A stretch of 33,034 bases of DNA, from the NCBI GenBank assembly GCA_017448355.1, contig JAFSLQ010000037.1, positions 1-33,034 of the forward strand, in the 5' to 3' direction. Origin of the DNA: Clostridia bacterium. Its GTDB lineage: Bacteria > Bacillota > Clostridia > Christensenellales > Borkfalkiaceae. Shown in pieces: positions 1 to 7,200 of this stretch. The notes beneath the pieces are model-generated. The model saw only the letters and a list, made by a program, of their open reading frames with translations. It did no database searches and was not told the DNA's origin. The first letter of the stretch is position 1. Each line of letters begins with the position of its first letter. Made by a program: the position numbers and the translations under genes.

Positions 1-12
1 CACAATAGATGA
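1..12 (-). repeat. half of an inverted recombination-site-like repeat (site D)
   Basis: CACAATAGATGA at the window edge is the exact reverse complement of bases 128-139 in site A. The other half would lie left of base 1. With site A it encloses an AT-rich segment containing the leftward promoter at 28-56. Confidence 0.6.
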
Positions 13-27
13 CAATCCAACGCATTA

Positions 28-56
28 ATTTTACGAAAAATGTCGAAAAAAGTCAA
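28..56 (-). promoter_or_regulatory. predicted sigma-A promoter reading left out of the window
   Basis: On the minus strand the -35 is TTGACT (56-51), the spacer is 17 nt and the -10 is TAAAAT (33-28). It lies inside the segment bounded by sites D and A and points to a gene beyond base 1. If the segment inverted, the promoter would read right into the terminator at 158-181. Confidence 0.6.
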
Positions 57-101
57 GTATATTTAACGCAATAACAAATAAAAATATAAAATTACATTAA
101 A

Positions 102-149
102 TAGATGATAAATAAATATTATTTGTTCATCTATTGTGCTAGTAGATGA
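102..149 (+). repeat. recombination-site-like repeat A
   Basis: Three half-sites related to TAGATGA lie at 102-108 (forward), 127-133 (reverse) and 143-149 (forward). The right pair forms TCATCTATT-GTGCT-AGTAGATGA (127-149), an inverted pair with a 5-nt centre and one arm mismatch. The left pair (102-115 with 119-133) is also nearly palindromic. A direct relative, site B, lies at 648-702 on the other side of the SLOG gene; the inverted partner is site D at base 1. Confidence 0.7.
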
Positions 150-157
150 TGCCTTTT

Positions 158-181
158 AGATGGCTGTTAGCCGTCTTTTTT
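158..181 (+). terminator. rho-independent terminator, plus strand
   Basis: The 8-bp stem AGATGGCT/AGCCGTCT (one G-T pair) has a 3-nt loop and is followed by six T. It would stop rightward transcription coming through site A, including transcription from the 28-56 promoter if that segment were inverted. It overlaps the stop codon of the leftward SLOG gene. The 13-mer TAGATGGCTGTTA inside it recurs at 829-841. Confidence 0.6.
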
Positions 182-634
182 ATTTGTAATTAGCGTAATC
201 GTTATGTCTTTTTGTTGCGCTTTCTTCAAACACTCATAAGCACCACCATAGTTCCTTTCAACGTAAGAAACCAGCATCTCCGAATTGTTTACAAACCACT
301 CATTTCTTTTCGTGATTGCCGCCTTGTAATGAGTGTGATACAACTCTTGCGGATACCAAACTTCATCATAATATTTCTCCATGTCTTCCATATCGGCAAT
401 AGGATACGGAATTACAAGAATAAGCGAATTGTTTGCTTTTCCGTAATCACGTTGCACCCTTTTTATAACCGACGCAACCATAATGTCAAACTCGCCGTTT
501 CGCCCAACATAAAACTCGACATATTCTTTTTTTTCAATCAGTTCTTTTACAATGTTTTCGACTTGTTCTTCGACATATGAAAAATTTTCAACTTCTCTAT
601 GTCCTATAAAAGAAACCCTATAAATATCAAACAC
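167..634 (-). CDS. SLOG-family (DUF1273/YpsA-like) protein
   Basis: The predicted 155-residue protein begins FDIYRVSFIGHRE, the strand-loop-helix start with a GHR motif seen in the DUF1273/YpsA branch of the SLOG superfamily. It continues with EFYVGRNGEFD and ends with an NYGGAYECLKKA segment, also typical. SLOG proteins are thought to bind nucleotides or nucleotide-like ligands; the role of this branch is not settled, though it is common on Firmicutes mobile elements. I chose the GTG at 634 because GGAG (646-643) sits 8 nt upstream; an in-frame TTG at 661 lies inside repeat B and has no ribosome site. The gene lies between two inverted-repeat modules. The only good promoter in the right-hand module points away from it, so it may be off in the orientation shown, unless integrase transcripts read through. 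Confidence 0.75.
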   Translation of the reverse strand: MFDIYRVSFIGHREVENFSYVEEQVENIVKELIEKKEYVEFYVGRNGEFDIMVASVIKRVQRDYGKANNSLILVIPYPIADMEDMEKYYDEVWYPQELYHTHYKAAITKRNEWFVNNSEMLVSYVERNYGGAYECLKKAQQKDITITLITNKKDG

Positions 635-647
635 TATTTTTACTCCA

Positions 648-702
648 TAGATGATAAACAAAATAACGATTTGTTCACCTATTGTTGTAATAGATGAACA
701 AA
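648..702 (+). repeat. recombination-site-like repeat B
   Basis: A forward half-site lies at 648-654. It is followed by a 14-bp inverted pair (670-683 and 689-702, one mismatch) around the 5-nt centre GTTGT. The repeat is about 80% identical in order and spacing to site A. Its core CTATTGTTGTAATAG (679-693) occurs as an exact reverse complement at 817-831 in site C. Confidence 0.75.
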
Positions 703-831
703 CCGCTACTTTTTAACCACCTATGAATAATTTTAATGAAATTTTACTATCAACCTGTTTGCGTATAATTGTTTTATTTTTTAATTTTTGATATAATTAT
801 GAATATAAAAGTCCGCCTATTACAACAATAG
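679..831. other. candidate invertible promoter segment (sites B and C)
   Basis: Fifteen-base perfect inverted repeats at 679-693 and 817-831 bound an AT-rich, non-coding segment with a strong rightward promoter (769-797). By geometry, inversion would move the -10 to about 713-718 facing left, roughly 70 nt upstream of the SLOG start at 634. A tyrosine recombinase gene begins just to the right. The inversion itself is inference and has not been observed here. Confidence 0.5.
769..797 (+). promoter_or_regulatory. predicted sigma-A promoter inside candidate invertible segment
   Basis: TTGTTT (769-774), a 17-nt spacer and TATAAT (792-797). As shown, it reads right through site C and into the integrase gene in the antisense direction. 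In the flipped state it would drive the SLOG gene. Confidence 0.55.
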
Positions 832-841
832 ATGGCTGTTA
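817..841 (-). repeat. recombination-site-like repeat C, inverted relative to B
   Basis: CTATTACAACAATAG (817-831) is the exact reverse complement of the site B core, including the 5-nt centre. The flank TAGATGGCTGTTA (829-841) repeats 157-169 exactly. Confidence 0.7.
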
Positions 842-1771
842 TTATAGCAGTTTTCCAAGCCTGTTCATCATGTCTCTTTTGTGTTCCATTAAAGAGTGAA
901 CGTATCTGTTTAATGTTACCGTCGGCGACTTATGTCCGAGAATATCAGATAACGTCTTAACGTCCATACCGCACTCTAACGCTCTTGTTGCGAAAGTGTG
1001 CCGAAGCGAGTGAAATCCCCTATGCGGGATTTTTAATTTTCTCTGCAACAAATCAAAGCTTCGCTGATAAGATCTGACAGACAACGGCTTATTATTTTTT
1101 GAAACAATAAACTCGGACTCGCTTTTCTTTTTCGCTTCTCTTATAAGCGGTAATAATTGTCTCGGTAAAGGTATAATCCTGCGAGAAGATGATGTTTTCG
1201 GCGTGTCTTCAAATCTAACGTAATGACCGAATTTATCTTTTCCGTCGTGACAAGATTTTGAGACAGTCAAAATCCCTTTCTGCAAATCAATATCGTCCCA
1301 TTTTAACGCAAGCAATTCCCCTACACGAAGTCCGGTATAAAGACAAAGTAATATGCCGAACATCTTGCCTTTCTTACTATTTAACACCGCTTGCTCAATC
1401 TGTTTTTGTTCATATGCCGTAAAACAATTTACGGCTTTTTCTTGCGCTTTCGGTCGCTTTATCCTATCTGCCGTAAACTCTTTTATGTAGCCGAGATTAA
1501 ACGCAGTTCTGAGCGAATTTTGCACAACATTTATAATGCTACCGACCGAATTTGCAGACAATCCTTTGCCCGTCTTTAAATTGCCCGTTTGTAGCAACTC
1601 GGTAATATAATGTTGTAGAACGCTCGGCGTTATATCGTCTAACTCATAATTCCCGAGTTTCGGTATAAGATGTTGTTTTACAATCTCCGAATACCTACTG
1701 AACGTCCTTGCTTTTGCCGTTGGCTCGATATAATTATCTAACCACTCTTTTAACCAATCTTTATATTTCAT
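842..1771 (-). CDS. tyrosine recombinase/integrase without arm-binding domain
   Basis: This is a 309-residue site-specific recombinase. An N-terminal SAM-like core-binding domain (about 1-100) is followed by the catalytic domain. All catalytic residues are visible: Arg149 (TGLRVGE), Lys192, the H254-S-L-R257 motif, His280 (LGHKS) and the nucleophile Tyr290 (LNRYVHS). It starts directly with the core-binding domain and lacks the AP2-like arm-binding domain of Tn916 or lambda-type integrases, so simple short sites are its likely substrates. The ATG at 1771 has a strong AGGAG 7 nt upstream; the longer frame to 1810 starts inside a hairpin. The leader (19-codon peptide plus terminator-like hairpin) suggests attenuation control. 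Two pairs of inverted sites lie immediately downstream. It could equally be the element's integrase. Confidence 0.9.
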   Translation of the reverse strand: MKYKDWLKEWLDNYIEPTAKARTFSRYSEIVKQHLIPKLGNYELDDITPSVLQHYITELLQTGNLKTGKGLSANSVGSIINVVQNSLRTAFNLGYIKEFTADRIKRPKAQEKAVNCFTAYEQKQIEQAVLNSKKGKMFGILLCLYTGLRVGELLALKWDDIDLQKGILTVSKSCHDGKDKFGHYVRFEDTPKTSSSRRIIPLPRQLLPLIREAKKKSESEFIVSKNNKPLSVRSYQRSFDLLQRKLKIPHRGFHSLRHTFATRALECGMDVKTLSDILGHKSPTVTLNRYVHSLMEHKRDMMNRLGKLL

Positions 1772-1795
1772 TTTACTTCTCCTTTTTCCTTTTAT

Positions 1796-1829
1796 AAAAA
1801 TAAGCCGCACGAACTGTATCGCACGGCTT
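1796..1829 (-). terminator. terminator-like hairpin in the integrase leader
   Basis: On the minus strand AAGCCG/CGGCTT (1829-1824 with 1807-1802), plus an inner CGA/TCG pair, is followed by ATTTTTAT. It sits 16 nt after the leader-peptide stop and ahead of the integrase ribosome site, the geometry of an attenuator. Confidence 0.55.
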
Positions 1830-1844
1830 TAAAAGATCTGATTT

Positions 1845-1904
1845 TTATAGCAATATCACATACGCTATCTTTGCTTTCAGTCGCGCTTTTAATTTGGGCT
1901 TCAT
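1845..1904 (-). CDS. 19-residue basic leader peptide upstream of integrase
   Basis: The short frame MKPKLKARLKAKIAYVILL has an excellent ribosome site, AGGTGAGGGG, 6 nt before its ATG. The N-terminal half is strongly basic and the C-terminal end hydrophobic. Its stop codon lies 16 nt before a terminator-like hairpin that precedes the integrase. Ribosome position on this frame could decide whether the hairpin forms, as in erm-type or amino-acid attenuators. No run of one amino acid is present, so the sensed signal is unclear. A membrane-active peptide is the alternative. I know no named family. Confidence 0.45.
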   Translation of the reverse strand: MKPKLKARLKAKIAYVILL

Positions 1905-2013
1905 AAGAATCCCCTCACCTAAAAGGGCGATTTTCGGGCAAAAGTCAAGGTTAAAATTAAAAATAGTAGAAAATATTTTTTAAAAGTTTAATTATATATT
2001 TACAAATACCAAT

Positions 2014-2054
2014 ATTTTAAAAAGCATGAGCCGCTGTAAAAACACAACGGCTCA
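2014..2054 (-). terminator. terminator of the first XRE gene
   Basis: Stem TGAGCCG/CGGCTCA (2054-2048 with 2033-2027) with an inner ACA/TGT pair, followed on the minus strand by TGCTTTTTAAAA. It lies 10 nt past the stop of the XRE gene at 2065. Confidence 0.75.
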
Positions 2055-2064
2055 CTTACACTTT

Positions 2065-2370
2065 TTAGCCCTTAATGGTTTTTATCATAACCTTTACGGC
2101 TTGTTTCTGTTCCTGCGTCAATAAAAGCCAGTCGTCAAACAATTCTTTCATTTCCGCATCAACTTCGATGAGATTATTGTCGGCAAATAGTTGACTTAAC
2201 GTTATCCCAAACGCATCACAAATTCCTTCTAACGCCTGAACTGTAGGCGTTGAATTCCTATGATACCAATTATAAATACATTTTTCAGATAAACCCGAAA
2301 GTTCAGCCAACTTATATACTGACCAACCTCTTTTAATACGCATCTGTTCAATCTTCTTAATTATACTCAC
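2065..2370 (-). CDS. XRE-family transcriptional regulator
   Basis: This 101-residue protein has an N-terminal helix-turn-helix (about 5-60): IKRGWSVYKLAELSGLSEK is followed by IYNWYHRNSTPTVQALEGICDAFGI, the classic Cro/C1 pattern. A C-terminal helix with QEQKQAVKVMIKTIK may dimerise. The start is GTG at 2370 with AGGAG 7 nt upstream. A promoter (TGAACA-17-TATAAT) is at 2443-2415 and a terminator follows the gene. It resembles the second XRE protein encoded just upstream, suggesting an old duplication. It probably represses or tunes the divergent recombinase operon or the integrase; the target is inferred from position only. Confidence 0.85.
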   Translation of the reverse strand: MSIIKKIEQMRIKRGWSVYKLAELSGLSEKCIYNWYHRNSTPTVQALEGICDAFGITLSQLFADNNLIEVDAEMKELFDDWLLLTQEQKQAVKVMIKTIKG

Positions 2371-2414
2371 GAGAGAACTCCTATTCTATTATTACTGAAC
2401 AACTGTCCTATATA

Positions 2415-2443
2415 ATTATAGCCTAAACAGCTTTTTATGTTCA
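2415..2443 (-). promoter_or_regulatory. promoter of the first XRE gene
   Basis: TGAACA (2443-2438), a 17-nt spacer and TATAAT (2420-2415) on the minus strand. An 11-bp palindrome TATACTGTATA lies just upstream at 2452-2462 and may be an operator. Confidence 0.6.
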
Positions 2444-2504
2444 TAGCCACCTATACTGTATAATATGGAACTATTGTAGAATTAAAATGCAGATTATCCC
2501 TATT

Positions 2505-2572
2505 AAATATAGGTGGGCTTTTGCGAGTATGACGAATAATTCATACAATCTCGCCTATATTTTTTCAAGCCC
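2505..2572 (-). promoter_or_regulatory. bistable hairpin between the two XRE genes
   Basis: A central stem GCGAG/CTCGC (2523-2527 with 2550-2554) can be extended in two crossing ways: AAATATAG/CTATATTT (2505-2512 with 2555-2562) or GGGCTT/AAGCCC (2515-2520 with 2567-2572). The two outer stems cannot both form as simple nested helices. It lies after the second XRE gene and before the promoter of the first. It may be a terminator of the former or a regulated read-through element. Confidence 0.4.
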
Positions 2573-2636
2573 AGATTTTATATTATTTTTTTATTCTAAT
2601 TTTAGAATAGGATTCTCGTGAATAATTATTTATGTA

Positions 2637-2960
2637 TTATGTTTTCATGTTTTTTGCCACCTCCAACAATAATTTTCTGGTTGAGTCAGATAACTCGTTC
2701 ACAACACAAAACAGTTCATCAGTTATTTCGTCTTCAATCAAGAAAAACTTAGCAAGCGTAATATCTAGCGAATTGCAGATCGGAATTAGTGTTTCCAGCG
2801 TAGGCATTGATTTCCTATATAAACTTGAATAGATTGTTGATGCTGTAATTCCCGACAAGTCGGCAAGCCTGTTCATTGTCCATCCGGATTGTTCGCATAA
2901 TCTCATAATCCTGTCATAAATGGCTTTTGGAGTCCATTTGTCATTTTTTGTACTTTTCAT
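2637..2960 (-). CDS. XRE-family transcriptional regulator
   Basis: This is a 107-residue DNA-binding protein. The helix-turn-helix covers about residues 14-70: EQSGWTMNRLADLSGITAS, then TIYSSLYRKSMPTLETLIPIC, then NSLDITLAKFF. The C-terminal part is a helical segment, DELFCVVNELSDSTRKLLLEV. The ATG at 2960 has AAGGAG 8 nt upstream. It is divergent from the recombinase operon starting at 3133, with about 170 bp between starts that contain a 14-bp palindrome, so it is the natural candidate repressor of that operon and of itself. It resembles the XRE protein at 2065 in fold and length. Confidence 0.85.
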   Translation of the reverse strand: MKSTKNDKWTPKAIYDRIMRLCEQSGWTMNRLADLSGITASTIYSSLYRKSMPTLETLIPICNSLDITLAKFFLIEDEITDELFCVVNELSDSTRKLLLEVAKNMKT

Positions 2961-3084
2961 TATAAATACTCCTTAAATGATTTATTTGGGCTTGGAAAAA
3001 CCATTTTCGGAAAATCTATGCTACAGCGTATATTTATTAAGGCACAAGCGTACATAAAAAAATTTCGACTTGTTATATAATTAT

Positions 3085-3098
3085 AATGAAATTTCATT
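3085..3098. promoter_or_regulatory. candidate XRE operator, perfect 14-bp palindrome
   Basis: AATGAAATTTCATT is perfectly palindromic and overlaps two TATAAT-like hexamers (3076-3081 and 3082-3087) upstream of the recombinase operon, in the divergent space next to an XRE gene. No good -35 is visible. Operator function is inferred. Confidence 0.4.
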
Positions 3099-3132
3099 TT
3101 TTCAGGAATCGTTGAAACGGGGGGGCAATAAA

Positions 3133-3624
3133 ATGGACAAGGTTTATAGCGTCGTAGGATATGTAAAACTTGCGAAATTATGGGAACGAAGCGAACAATC
3201 CGCAAAGACATATCATCAAAATTACTATAAAACCAAATTCGCAGATACCCCTTGCTACAAGTTATATAATGTTTATATAGATATTACAGGCAAAAAAGAA
3301 ACATATAAGCGCATAGAAATGGTTCGACTATTAAAAGACTGCCAATTCGGTTATGTAGATTGCATATTTACACAAACAAAGGCATATTTAGCGGCTAATA
3401 CAAGAGAATTTTGCTATTTACTTAAATTTCTTTTTTCAATGGAACACAGGATTGACATTGTAACGGAAGACGACGCTTATAACATAAACACCATTGCGAA
3501 TGACGATAATCAACGCGAAGCGTTAATTAAAATGGCGGACGATTTTATATATTTAAATCCTCCCGACTTCCGTAATTGGTTAAGTGAACTAACAAAAAGA
3601 ATAAACGCTATTGAAAACGACTAA
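3133..3624 (+). CDS. resolvase-domain-like protein lacking catalytic residues
   Basis: This 163-residue protein aligns along its length with the catalytic domain of the recombinase encoded next. NVYIDITG...YKRIEMVRLLKDCQFGYVDCIFTQT matches the recombinase's DIYKDEGISG...RKDFLRMIADAENKKMDLILCAS, and IDIVTEDDAYN matches the strand before FETEDIYT. The nucleophile motif YARVS of the partner is replaced here by VGYVK (8-12), and the arginine motif SRFARD by KAYLAA, so strand cleavage is not expected. The ATG at 3133 follows an unusual run of seven G rather than a standard AGGAGG; an upstream in-frame ATG at 3070 has no ribosome site. It is first in an operon of four recombinase-related genes. A regulatory or structural partner of the active recombinase is my inference; I know no named family. 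Confidence 0.6.
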   Translation: MDKVYSVVGYVKLAKLWERSEQSAKTYHQNYYKTKFADTPCYKLYNVYIDITGKKETYKRIEMVRLLKDCQFGYVDCIFTQTKAYLAANTREFCYLLKFLFSMEHRIDIVTEDDAYNINTIANDDNQREALIKMADDFIYLNPPDFRNWLSELTKRINAIEND

Positions 3625-3638
3625 AAGGAGTTGCAACA

Positions 3639-5594
3639 TTGGATACCGATAAACCGAATACAAACGAAAACGAACAATCAAATGAAACCACGCCGACTTA
3701 TCAGTGGCGACCACAAGATGCGGATAGAGAATTTATTAAAATGACTACCCGCAAACGAGTCCGCAACGCAAAAGTCCCTGAAAATGCTATATTCAAGCCG
3801 GCAAAGCCTACACCGACTATAAACGATTTAGGACAGAAGAAGGTTGCGGTTTACGCTCGCGTCAGCACAAAAAGCACCAATCAAGTCTCATCTATTGAAA
3901 ATCAGACAAAATACTATACGGAAAAAATTGCAAAAACACCTAATTGGGAAATGCAAGACATTTATAAGGATGAAGGTATTTCAGGCACATCAATAAAAAG
4001 ACGTAAAGATTTTTTAAGGATGATTGCAGATGCAGAAAACAAAAAAATGGATTTAATCCTTTGTGCAAGTGTTTCGCGTTTTGCAAGAGACGTATCAGAC
4101 TGTATCGAACAAGTCCGCAAATTAAAAACCGTCAACCCATCTCACCCTGTCGGCGTTTATTTTGAAACGGAAGACATTTATACTCTCGACCCTAACGTTT
4201 CAGAACGTTTAGAAATGCACGCGATGTTTTCTGCTTGGGAATCAAGAAATAAAAGTCGCCGTATGATTTTATCATACGACCAACGAATATGTACGGGACA
4301 ATATCCTGTATTAGACTTACTTGGTTATAGACACACTGAAGACGGAGATTTAATAATTCAGCCGGAAGAAGCAAAAACGGTACGATTCATTTTTCTGGCA
4401 TATATTGCGGGATATTCCTATAAAACCATTGCGGAAATACTTACAAATAAAAAAAGAACCACCCTTACGGGTAGAACCGAATGGAACGTTGCAATGGTAA
4501 AAAACATTATGTATAATGAACGTCGTTGGGGCGATTTAGACGCAAGAAAAACAGTCTGCATAGATTATAAAGAACGTATTGTCGTTAAAAACAAAGATTT
4601 AAGAGATGCAGCTTATATTCCGAATCATCACGAAGGAATTGTTACGCCCGCCATTGCAAAAGCGGCACATTTGCTTGCGTCAAGCGGAAAAACCGTCAAT
4701 TCCGTTCCGAACACATCTATTATAACTAGTGGATCATTGAAAGGTTTTATTAGTATTTCCCCTGCGTGGAAAGGTGTTGACGACGCTTCTTTACAACTTG
4801 TATCTCGCAACGTTTATACAGACGAAGAATATGAAGAATTAGAATTCATATCAAAAATTAGTAGCGGCGAAGAACACAGCAAAATCTTATCGTTTAACCT
4901 ATCTAACTATGAAGTTCCCTACGGCGCATTTTTCCTGAACCAAAAAACACCTTCATTAACGGTAACTTATAAAACTATCAAATTTAACCGTGCGGCTCAC
5001 TCTCGTTTGGGAAATTGTAATTTTATAGAACTGTTATACCACCCTATCCTGAAAATGATTGCAATAAAAGAAACAATTCAGGAAAACCCATATGCATTAA
5101 AATGGATAAACGAAGACGGTACTATAAAATCATCGCTAAATTCAAAAGCCTTGTCAAAATCCATATATGAAAGAATCGGTTGGAAACAAGATTTCAATTT
5201 TAAGTTCAGGGGTATAACCCGTATCCGCGGCAATGCAAAAATTCTAATATTCTATCTTGACGAACCGCAGATAATTCCAAGTAAAAAAACAAAGCAATCA
5301 ACTGCCAACGAAAAAACAAACAATACTGAACAATATATCGCTTATAAAGAAAATACAGAAAACGAATCATCAACCAATGTCCCCGAAACAACAACTGTTT
5401 CTAAAACCATAACAAATAATGACAGTTTTGGAATAAGCCTATCTTTAAGTAAAAAGCGAGATTGGATAGTTCACTCAATATCCGAACAAGATATTCAAAC
5501 CAAAGGGGTATTTGTCGATAATCCGCTTATAGGCGCACTACCGAGCAAATATGAAATAAATGAAGAATTGGAAAAACTAATCGCTTCCATGTAA
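3639..5594 (+). CDS. large serine recombinase without zinc ribbon
   Basis: This 651-residue protein has a Ser/Thr-rich lead-in, then a resolvase catalytic domain (about 69-210) with Ser76 in YARVSTK, the IENQ and DEGISGTS motifs and Arg147 and Arg150 in SRFARD. A recombinase DNA-binding domain follows (about 225-345: LLGYRHTEDG, TIAEILTN, W...VKNIMYNERRWGD). Most members next show a CxxC zinc ribbon. Here that place reads LKGFISISPAWKG with no cysteines. Residues 420-545 form another domain that recurs in the next two genes. The start is TTG at 3639 with AAGGAG 8 nt upstream and 14 nt after the previous stop. Such enzymes integrate, excise or invert DNA; the target site here is not identifiable. 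Confidence 0.88.
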   Translation: MDTDKPNTNENEQSNETTPTYQWRPQDADREFIKMTTRKRVRNAKVPENAIFKPAKPTPTINDLGQKKVAVYARVSTKSTNQVSSIENQTKYYTEKIAKTPNWEMQDIYKDEGISGTSIKRRKDFLRMIADAENKKMDLILCASVSRFARDVSDCIEQVRKLKTVNPSHPVGVYFETEDIYTLDPNVSERLEMHAMFSAWESRNKSRRMILSYDQRICTGQYPVLDLLGYRHTEDGDLIIQPEEAKTVRFIFLAYIAGYSYKTIAEILTNKKRTTLTGRTEWNVAMVKNIMYNERRWGDLDARKTVCIDYKERIVVKNKDLRDAAYIPNHHEGIVTPAIAKAAHLLASSGKTVNSVPNTSIITSGSLKGFISISPAWKGVDDASLQLVSRNVYTDEEYEELEFISKISSGEEHSKILSFNLSNYEVPYGAFFLNQKTPSLTVTYKTIKFNRAAHSRLGNCNFIELLYHPILKMIAIKETIQENPYALKWINEDGTIKSSLNSKALSKSIYERIGWKQDFNFKFRGITRIRGNAKILIFYLDEPQIIPSKKTKQSTANEKTNNTEQYIAYKENTENESSTNVPETTTVSKTITNNDSFGISLSLSKKRDWIVHSISEQDIQTKGVFVDNPLIGALPSKYEINEELEKLIASM

Positions 5595-5611
5595 GCGTTA
5601 AGGAGAATATT

Positions 5612-6352
5612 ATGGAAAATACAAATGAAACATTACAAAATCAAGGCGAAGTCATAAGCCAAAAAGAACAGGAATTGATTGCTCAACTCGTAAGTATAAG
5701 AAAAGAACAGAAACAAAACTTACCGTTTGAAACTCTCGACGGTTATGAAGTTCCTCCACGAACACAGTTTTCAATGCTTAAAAAACCCGCTGTTACATTT
5801 AAAATAACAAAATTTGAATTCAACTGTGCGGCGGTAAGACTTTTTTCGGGAATCACTTTGGTTTTGCCGACTTTTAACAGAGCTAAAAAAAGATTGGCGG
5901 CTATCCCTTGCTCGGAAGAAGAAAGTGCTTCCATAGAGTGGTCTAGATTAAAAAATGACGTTTATATTTCTAAAACAATTACCTCGCCCGACTATGTGGA
6001 AAAAATATTCGAGATTATGAAATGGGACAGAACTTGCAGATACAAAATTCTCGGTCGCCTTGCGCAGACTGAACGTGGACTTGTTCTTATTTTCGATTGT
6101 GAAGAAGCAATTAAGTTTGCTCCACAACCTTTAGAATACGTTGACAAGCGTACAGGTCAGATTAAGAAACGACAAGTTAAATACTACCCAGACGAATACA
6201 AATATAAAATCGGAAAATCATATAGCGACTACGTTGCTTTCCACCAACAAAGCCTTTTTGAAAATCTTGACGAATACACCGAAACGACTGAAGGCGCAAA
6301 AGCTGACTCAATCCCAATAAATGAAAATGGAGAAACAAATGAAAAACAATGA
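5612..6352 (+). CDS. paralogue of the serine recombinase C-terminal domain
   Basis: This is a 246-residue protein with ATG 6 nt after AAGGAG. Residues about 45-165 align with 420-545 of the large recombinase: LDGYEVPPRTQF with LSNYEVPYGAFF, VTFKITKFEFNCAAVRLFSG with a similar YKTIKFNRAAHSRLGN stretch, then a shared helix (DYVEKIFEIMKWDRTCRYKI with SIYERIGWKQDFNFKF) and a final strand (VLIFDCEEAIKF with ILIFYLDEPQII). It has no catalytic domain. A basic region with TGQIKKRQVKYYPDEYKYK follows. It sits in the same operon and is likely a partner that binds DNA or the recombinase; this is inference. I know no published name. Confidence 0.6.
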   Translation: MENTNETLQNQGEVISQKEQELIAQLVSIRKEQKQNLPFETLDGYEVPPRTQFSMLKKPAVTFKITKFEFNCAAVRLFSGITLVLPTFNRAKKRLAAIPCSEEESASIEWSRLKNDVYISKTITSPDYVEKIFEIMKWDRTCRYKILGRLAQTERGLVLIFDCEEAIKFAPQPLEYVDKRTGQIKKRQVKYYPDEYKYKIGKSYSDYVAFHQQSLFENLDEYTETTEGAKADSIPINENGETNEKQ

Positions 6353-6755
6353 GAAATTAAATTTGACAACAAAAGAATTAAGTCCTTACATCTTAATTCA
6401 AGCTCATAGATTTACAATCACCATCGGAAAAGATATTATAAGAAGTCTCGGCTTCCCTACACACGTTTGTCTTCGTATAAACGAAACAAACAATTCTTTT
6501 GCGATTATTCCTTGCAAGGAAGATGACGTAATGTCTTTTAAAGTACCTGAAAAATTGTTTACGGATAGCAAATGTGTGTTCAGAATATACAGCAAACAGT
6601 TTTTAATAAACCTTATTCTGAAATACGATTTAGATCCGTATTGCGTTTATGAGTGCAACGGAATACATAGCAAAAAGGTAAATGCTGTAATCGTAAGTTT
6701 AGACGCAGACAATCTAAAAATAACTAACAATTTTGCAATGCAAAAAGCCAACTAA
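6339..6755 (+). CDS. second small paralogue of the recombinase C-terminal domain
   Basis: This 138-residue protein shows the same order of elements as the two preceding genes: a strand with ITIGKDIIRSLGFP, a core strand FAIIPCKEDD matching LAAIPCSEEE of the 246-residue protein, a helix YSKQFLINLILKYDLDPYCVY, and a last strand NAVIVSLDADNL. Similarity is lower than between the first two copies. I chose the ATG at 6339, with GGAG 6 nt upstream, over 6321. It overlaps the previous gene by 14 nt, so the two are likely translationally coupled. It ends the four-gene operon; a terminator follows at 6892. Function unknown. Confidence 0.5.
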   Translation: MKNNEKLNLTTKELSPYILIQAHRFTITIGKDIIRSLGFPTHVCLRINETNNSFAIIPCKEDDVMSFKVPEKLFTDSKCVFRIYSKQFLINLILKYDLDPYCVYECNGIHSKKVNAVIVSLDADNLKITNNFAMQKAN

Positions 6756-6958: not shown

Positions 6959-7034
6959 TGGAGCTGGTGGGCGGACTTGAACCGCCGACCTGCTGATTAC
7001 GAATCAGCTGCTCTACCGACTGAGCCACACCAGC
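6959..7034 (-). tRNA. tRNA-Thr (anticodon CGT), CCA encoded
   Basis: A full cloverleaf folds on the minus strand: acceptor GCTGGTG/CACCAGC, D-arm GCTC...GAGC, anticodon stem GCTGA/TCAGC with loop TTCGTAA (anticodon CGT, reading ACG threonine codons), and T-arm GGCGG-TTCAAGT-CCGCC. The discriminator T is at 6962, followed by encoded CCA at 6961-6959. Bases 6996-7029 are duplicated exactly at 7162-7195. Confidence 0.97.
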
Positions 7035-7135: not shown

Positions 7136-7200
7136 GCTACTTTTTACTGGTTAATTAAATAATTACGAATCAGCTGCTCTACCGACTGAGCCACAGTAGC
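7136..7200 (-). pseudogene. partial tRNA-Thr copy (5' half) with a tRNA-like acceptor pairing
   Basis: Reading left from 7200, the copy keeps the D-arm and anticodon sequence: 34 identical bases at 7195-7162, matching 7029-6996. It then diverges inside the anticodon arm, and no T-arm is present. Its acceptor start GCTACT differs from the intact gene, yet AGTAGC at 7141-7136 could pair with it, closing a 65-nt tRNA-like shape. It may be an attachment-site remnant, the disrupted original host tRNA or a decayed tandem tRNA. Confidence 0.7.

Follow-up and report, generated by a model that had tools for sequence, protein, structure and literature searches.

A putative phase-variation switch, with its own tyrosine recombinase, beside a YpsA/SLOG-type gene in an order of Clostridia

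The window analysed here, a 33,034-nt stretch that is the entire contig C31 of a 1.94-Mb Clostridia genome in 60 contigs, very probably carries a phase-variation switch: two inverted sites, S2 and S3, enclose a promoter segment that an adjacent tyrosine recombinase (Int) would invert, and that as sequenced would lie in the OFF orientation. We propose that Int binds the two-arm sites S2 and S3, and that strand exchange within their identical 7-bp centres, TGTTGTA/TACAACA, would invert the segment between them. With the switch OFF, the promoter would point toward int's 3' end, leaving the SLOG gene silent, and RNA antisense to int is a reasonable predicted consequence; with it ON, transcripts from that promoter would read through S2 into the SLOG gene, with a leader of roughly 70 nt. 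Decisive support for this reading comes from relatives of the locus, which, as judged from sequence, is one of a family of putative modules in a single clostridial order, each made up of int, an invertible promoter and cargo. Read leftward, the locus consists of int (842-1810), S3 (813-835), 115 bp, S2 (675-697), the YpsA/SLOG-type gene (167-634), S1 (127-149), a further segment and S0, with the following features:

1..12, minus strand: S0, which pairs with S1 and is truncated within its centre where the contig begins
28..56, minus strand: promoter of the second segment, TTGACT-17-TAAAAT, leftward and away from the SLOG gene, its -10 ending 16 nt before S0 (spacing read by eye)
127..149, plus strand: S1, site of the second pair, TCATCTAT-TGTGCTA-GTAGATGA
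167..634, minus strand: predicted cargo, a YpsA/SLOG-type gene, likely GTG start at 634, reading frame open to 661
675..697, plus strand: S2, putative cargo-side recombination site, TCACCTAT-TGTTGTA-ATAGATGA, centre at 683-689, inverted partner of S3 with an identical 7-bp centre
698..812, strand not assigned: putative invertible segment bounded by S2 and S3, in the OFF orientation as sequenced (promoter toward int)
769..797, plus strand: candidate promoter TTGTTT-17-TATAAT, its -10 ending 16 nt before S3
813..835, minus strand: S3, putative int-side recombination site, CCGCCTAT-TACAACA-ATAGATGG, centre at 821-827
842..1810, minus strand: tyrosine recombinase (Int), PF00589 at 1.8e-29 and PF14659 at 3.2e-15, earliest in-frame start at 1810, with the likely ATG near 1771 (by eye)

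The S2/S3 pair matches at 18 of 21 bp, a score never reached by the best pair in 960 dinucleotide shuffles (450-nt regions 3' of int, 10 shuffles for each of 96 loci), and the two centres lie 138 bp apart (the family median, measured start to start, is 149 bp). The perfect 15-bp inverted repeats of the original prediction are both present: CTATTGTTGTAATAG occupies 679-693, and the sequence at 817-831 is exactly its reverse complement. Each repeat had been described as a two-arm site with a 5-nt centre; the two arms stand, but alignment across the family shows that the invariant centre is 7 bp long (TGTTGTA/TACAACA). S2 is also the core of a longer imperfect inverted repeat at 660-712 (24-nt arms, 83%), which would fall in the ON-state leader. 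The neighbouring recombinase had been said to lack an arm-binding domain, and it indeed matches SAM-like and catalytic Pfam domains only; the catalytic residues R, K, HxxR, H/W and Y are all present, as read by eye.

Relatives of Int at E <= 1e-75 are present in 81 of 396 genomes from the order and, at the level of the genus, in 12 of 44, the genome of the window being counted in both. The same clade is found in none of the 397 other genomes of a phylum-wide sample, which we infer, from 21 of 398 rows, to lie outside the order, so that the Int-switch family is apparently restricted to one order of Clostridia. A scan of viral contigs for Int gave 10 pattern matches with no relative among them, and the exact flipped junction gave 0 matches in the same kind of contig. 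For comparison of the sites we used 104 loci, the window included, after leaving out the weakest 31 of 135 distinct Int matches (counted by hand); 8 of the 104 have too little 3' sequence, leaving 96 for the pair search. Two further loci, L057 and L058, were read by eye and stand outside all counts.

Inverted pairs scoring at least 17/21 lie within 420 nt 3' of int in 68 of the 96 homologues, whereas shuffling yields one in 24 of 960 cases and the region upstream of int in 2 of 96; no such pair is present in the other 28 loci, in part of which the switch may be absent or lost. The set of 74 loci used for further comparison admits scores of 16, which 112 of the 960 shuffles also reach, and five loci were kept out of it, four (L076, L092, L116 and L152) manually and L072 through the limit on spacing. 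Site spacing is 126-177 bp in 71 of these 74. In an alignment of 71 loci by their centres, partners share 99-100% identity over positions -3 to +3, different loci are only 30-39% identical at the middle three bases, and 38 distinct centres are represented; arm positions differ freely between partners, with identity of 63% at -4 and 52% at +8. Since pairs were picked by complementarity, their internal identity is somewhat inflated, yet the drop at the 7-bp edge falls inside the same 21-bp window. The relatives show a centre that is identical between partners and of the 6-8 bp length expected for strand exchange by a tyrosine recombinase, and the pair at the window locus has identical 7-bp centres. 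Similarity of the arms correlates with Int identity at r=0.39 and that of the centres at r=0.14 (permutation p=0.0005 for both); as both correlations pass the permutation test, the contrast between them is only one of degree. The pair lies about 220 bp after int, rather than 10-110 bp, in L086, L132 and L158; in L158, int is followed by a third site before the pair is reached.

Comparison of related loci reveals natural inversion. Among the 74 loci, blastn relates 39 pairs of segments; taking int as the reference, 18 of these pairs are reversed and 21 are not. Over 2.4 kb, L062 and L066 align collinearly at 91.6% identity, with the 161 bp between the sites reversed at 99.4%; in L146 and L147 a reversed 190 bp is enclosed by collinear flanks of 93% and 86% identity; and the genome's own second copy (contig C12, L036) is reversed relative to L097. 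In the reversed isomers L062/L066, L146/L147 and L132/L136 the half-sites are swapped across the centre, and thus the crossover falls within the 7 bp. These reversed orthologues, collinear flanks, swapped arms and pair-specific centres support the originally predicted ON/OFF switch in its OFF state, and suggest that the segment in the window would flip in the same way. The second copy comprises a second int (56%) and its own OFF-state switch ahead of a lipoprotein gene (L036:4515-5700), and the ORFs upstream of it are phage-like by eye.

Contig ends are also unevenly placed around int, with 15 of the 104 loci breaking within 300 bp on its 3' side versus 2 of 104 on its 5' side. Five of the 15 breaks fall in site 1 (L060, L079, L087, L103 and L120, by eye), one lies 10 bp and four lie 55-61 bp past site 2, three cut within int, and two are at loci without a good pair. 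We infer that the 3' breaks reflect the behaviour of short-read assembly when both orientations coexist. The window contig starts inside a site and contig C46 of the same genome ends inside one, at positions that are not exactly those predicted by such an assembly-break model.

The promoter proposed for the window has its elements in place: TTGTTT at 769-774 and TATAAT at 792-797, separated by 17 bp and directed rightward, away from the SLOG gene. By sequence match alone it scores at chance in so AT-rich a stretch (p=0.64), and the case therefore rests on its family position, 16 nt from S3, and on a conserved -10, which aligns over the -10 of TTGACT-17-TATAAT in L061 (read by eye) in an alignment that outscores 200 shuffles. 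As had been anticipated, flipping would bring the promoter in front of the SLOG gene: the -10 would fall at 713-718, leaving 79 nt to the probable GTG start codon (634), and a GGAG Shine-Dalgarno motif lies at 643-646. Across the 74 family segments, scored with a promoter matrix, the best promoter-like score averages 9.9 bits against 6.6 (SD 1.4) in shuffles, with p<=0.05 in 49, and in 51 the -10 stops 14-22 nt short of the leading site. This best promoter points toward int (OFF) in 55 of the 74 and toward the gene beyond the pair in 19 (for the 49 with p<=0.05 the split is 34 to 15). One dominant predicted promoter per segment, pointing either way, adds to the strong family support for promoter inversion by the adjacent recombinase; the excess of OFF orientations means that flipping may be rare in places.

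Among competing explanations the one that fares best, though we consider it improbable, is that the palindromes are transcription terminators or protein-binding sites and that the segment at the window locus is static, a locked switch. The segment is OFF in both genomes that hold this locus, namely that of the window and G419 (L056, equivalent to G419:C33 and 97.5% identical to window 1-2633), and its reversed form was not found in these two; the S2-S3 segment also has an identical orientation in L056/L088, L061 and L064. In many relatives the int-side site in its OFF form is a hairpin followed by a T-run, and 41 of 70 loci show leader folding in favour of OFF (p=0.009), a bias that reaches p=0.056 in the 46 loci with clearer promoters. 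Against a locked state, the window locus has no such hairpin bias (-7.8 against -9.8 kcal/mol), its 15-bp site core is undamaged and its Int frame is open. We reject the OFF-state terminator as a general rule, since it is only a tendency and the window goes the opposite way. The OFF-form int-side site is a near-perfect hairpin followed by a T-run in L036, L062, L066, L097, L100, L102, L111 and others, and inversion may, as a tendency only, build and break a terminator.

We consider it very unlikely that the sites are instead integration (att) sites of a mobile element and the inverted pair a by-product of integration. Int does resemble element integrases, its nearest solved relatives being 6en0, 6emy and 6emz ('Int protein'), and the C12 copy and L058 sit among phage- or ICE-like genes (by eye). 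The pairs are, however, inverted rather than direct, reversed isomers with collinear flanks exist, and there is no further site copy on the module's other side in the 33-kb window, exact sites occurring genome-wide only in C31 and C46; on these three grounds we reject the att-site reading. Least likely of all is that the SLOG gene is an integron-like cassette which recombination between the direct-oriented S1 and S2 would excise, with gene loss rather than promoter flipping as the main event: the two sites do flank the gene in the same orientation and have about 50 bp in common at 80%, but their 7-bp centres differ at two positions, whereas true partners match, which leaves this a weak rival at most.

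The gene that a flipped S2-S3 promoter would serve had been called a SLOG gene. It has no direct Pfam or family match, and the assignment stands instead through homology to paralogues in the genome: two of these match PF06908 YpsA at 5e-21 and 6e-22, and a joint profile that includes both finds YpsA 2nx2 at 1.2e-8, placing the predicted cargo of the window in the YpsA/SLOG family. Across the family, the first ORF beyond the pair runs in int's direction in 62 of 69 loci. We scanned 57 cargo proteins, the window's own and 56 of the 67 found, with 11 left out. Among the best 25 of 54 Pfam families, the 57 include List-Bact repeats (10), divergent InlB repeats (7), LRR_5 (5), ResIII (5), N6_N4 methylase (3), TIR (2), NusG (2) and N_methyl (2), and PADLOC identifies type III methyltransferases in 3. 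The cargo thus spans surface lipoproteins, restriction-modification, NusG, TIR and pilin-like proteins, a repertoire that is usual for phase variation (PMC11892184). The first cargo genes of L085 and L148 are of NusG type, reminiscent of capsule-locus antiterminators. If our model is true, a whole order of uncultured, small-genome Clostridia varies surface, restriction and sensor genes by a dedicated recombinase-plus-promoter module, and phase variation of the YpsA/SLOG gene would suggest a function that is costly or only sometimes useful, such as defence.

The far side of the SLOG gene holds a second pair, S0/S1, that the original prediction overlooked. In L056, S0 is complete, and S0 and S1, 137 bp apart, have the same centre, TGTGCTA; the promoter TTGACT-17-TAAAAT lies between them and is directed away from the SLOG gene. 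This centre differs from that of S2/S3 at two positions (TGTGCTA versus TGTTGTA). Within the few kb scanned, only 4 of the 71 loci have extra sites with the same arms, and the window and G419 are the only two with a second pair in tandem. The end of C46 (L018:8940-9161) holds a site with the centre TAGTGTA, a segment and a cut site, and a strong promoter, TTGACA-17-TATAAT (by eye), directed toward a gene cluster in which a first gene precedes those for WXG100-like, ThiF (E1-like) and JAB proteins; by eye, C46 perhaps adjoins the window's contig C31, joined at S0. We hold it an evenly balanced proposition that one recombinase runs the tandem switches S2/S3 and S0/S1, and perhaps a third at the C46 end, with shared arms and spacing and with different 7-bp centres as the address, so that independent flips would yield several expression states from two or more cargo units. 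If partners must match in their centre, each promoter would flip alone and the SLOG gene between the direct S1 and S2 would not be excised. Were this true, pair-specific centres on shared arms would constitute natural insulated switches, useful for orthogonal genetic memory.

Several known systems share parts of this design. Mpi of Bacteroides fragilis is a serine recombinase encoded apart from its switches, unlike Int here, and the FimB/FimE-type tyrosine invertases of E. coli adjoin the promoter that they invert, as Int does. Int scores far below the family cut-offs, with 27.7 bits where NF007371 requires 222 and 25.6 where NF007370 requires 221, and there is no clear relation. Recombinase-linked promoter inversion is already known (PMC11892184, PMC5903667). 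The Bacteroides Mpi/capsule promoters, which PMC5903667 mentions, resemble the present family in having several invertible promoters under one recombinase and antiterminator cargo. The invertons of PMC11892184 likewise have short inverted repeats around a promoter, with surface-protein and antiterminator genes downstream and integrase-type genes nearby, oriented so that the promoter cannot drive them; that paper lists tyrosine recombinase/integrase genes near inverton groups 139 and 145, the former mostly from Clostridia-like Firmicutes_A. The present family differs from those invertons in comprising one Int clade in a single order, with a fixed place and direction (int, pair, cargo) and a pair-specific 7-bp centre. 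The RecV switches of Clostridioides difficile (PMC5903667, PMC9286219) share with it short inverted repeats and the inversion of a promoter or leader by a tyrosine recombinase that acts at several places; unlike RecV, which mostly acts at a distance, nearly every Int here has its own adjacent pair. A literature search in which subscription journals were thinly covered found no report of this Int clade, of a phase-variable SLOG gene or of tandem switches distinguished by their centres.

Beyond the int module, window 2633-6729 carries a large serine recombinase (3639-5594), a resolvase-like ORF (3070-3624) and two uncharacterised ORFs. This block is absent from L056, where the flanking parts adjoin, and is probably a separate insertion. 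A tRNA-Thr follows at 6959-7034, and then a 33-bp partial copy at 7163-7195 (by eye); in L056, the homologous block adjoins a tRNA-Leu rather than the tRNA-Thr.
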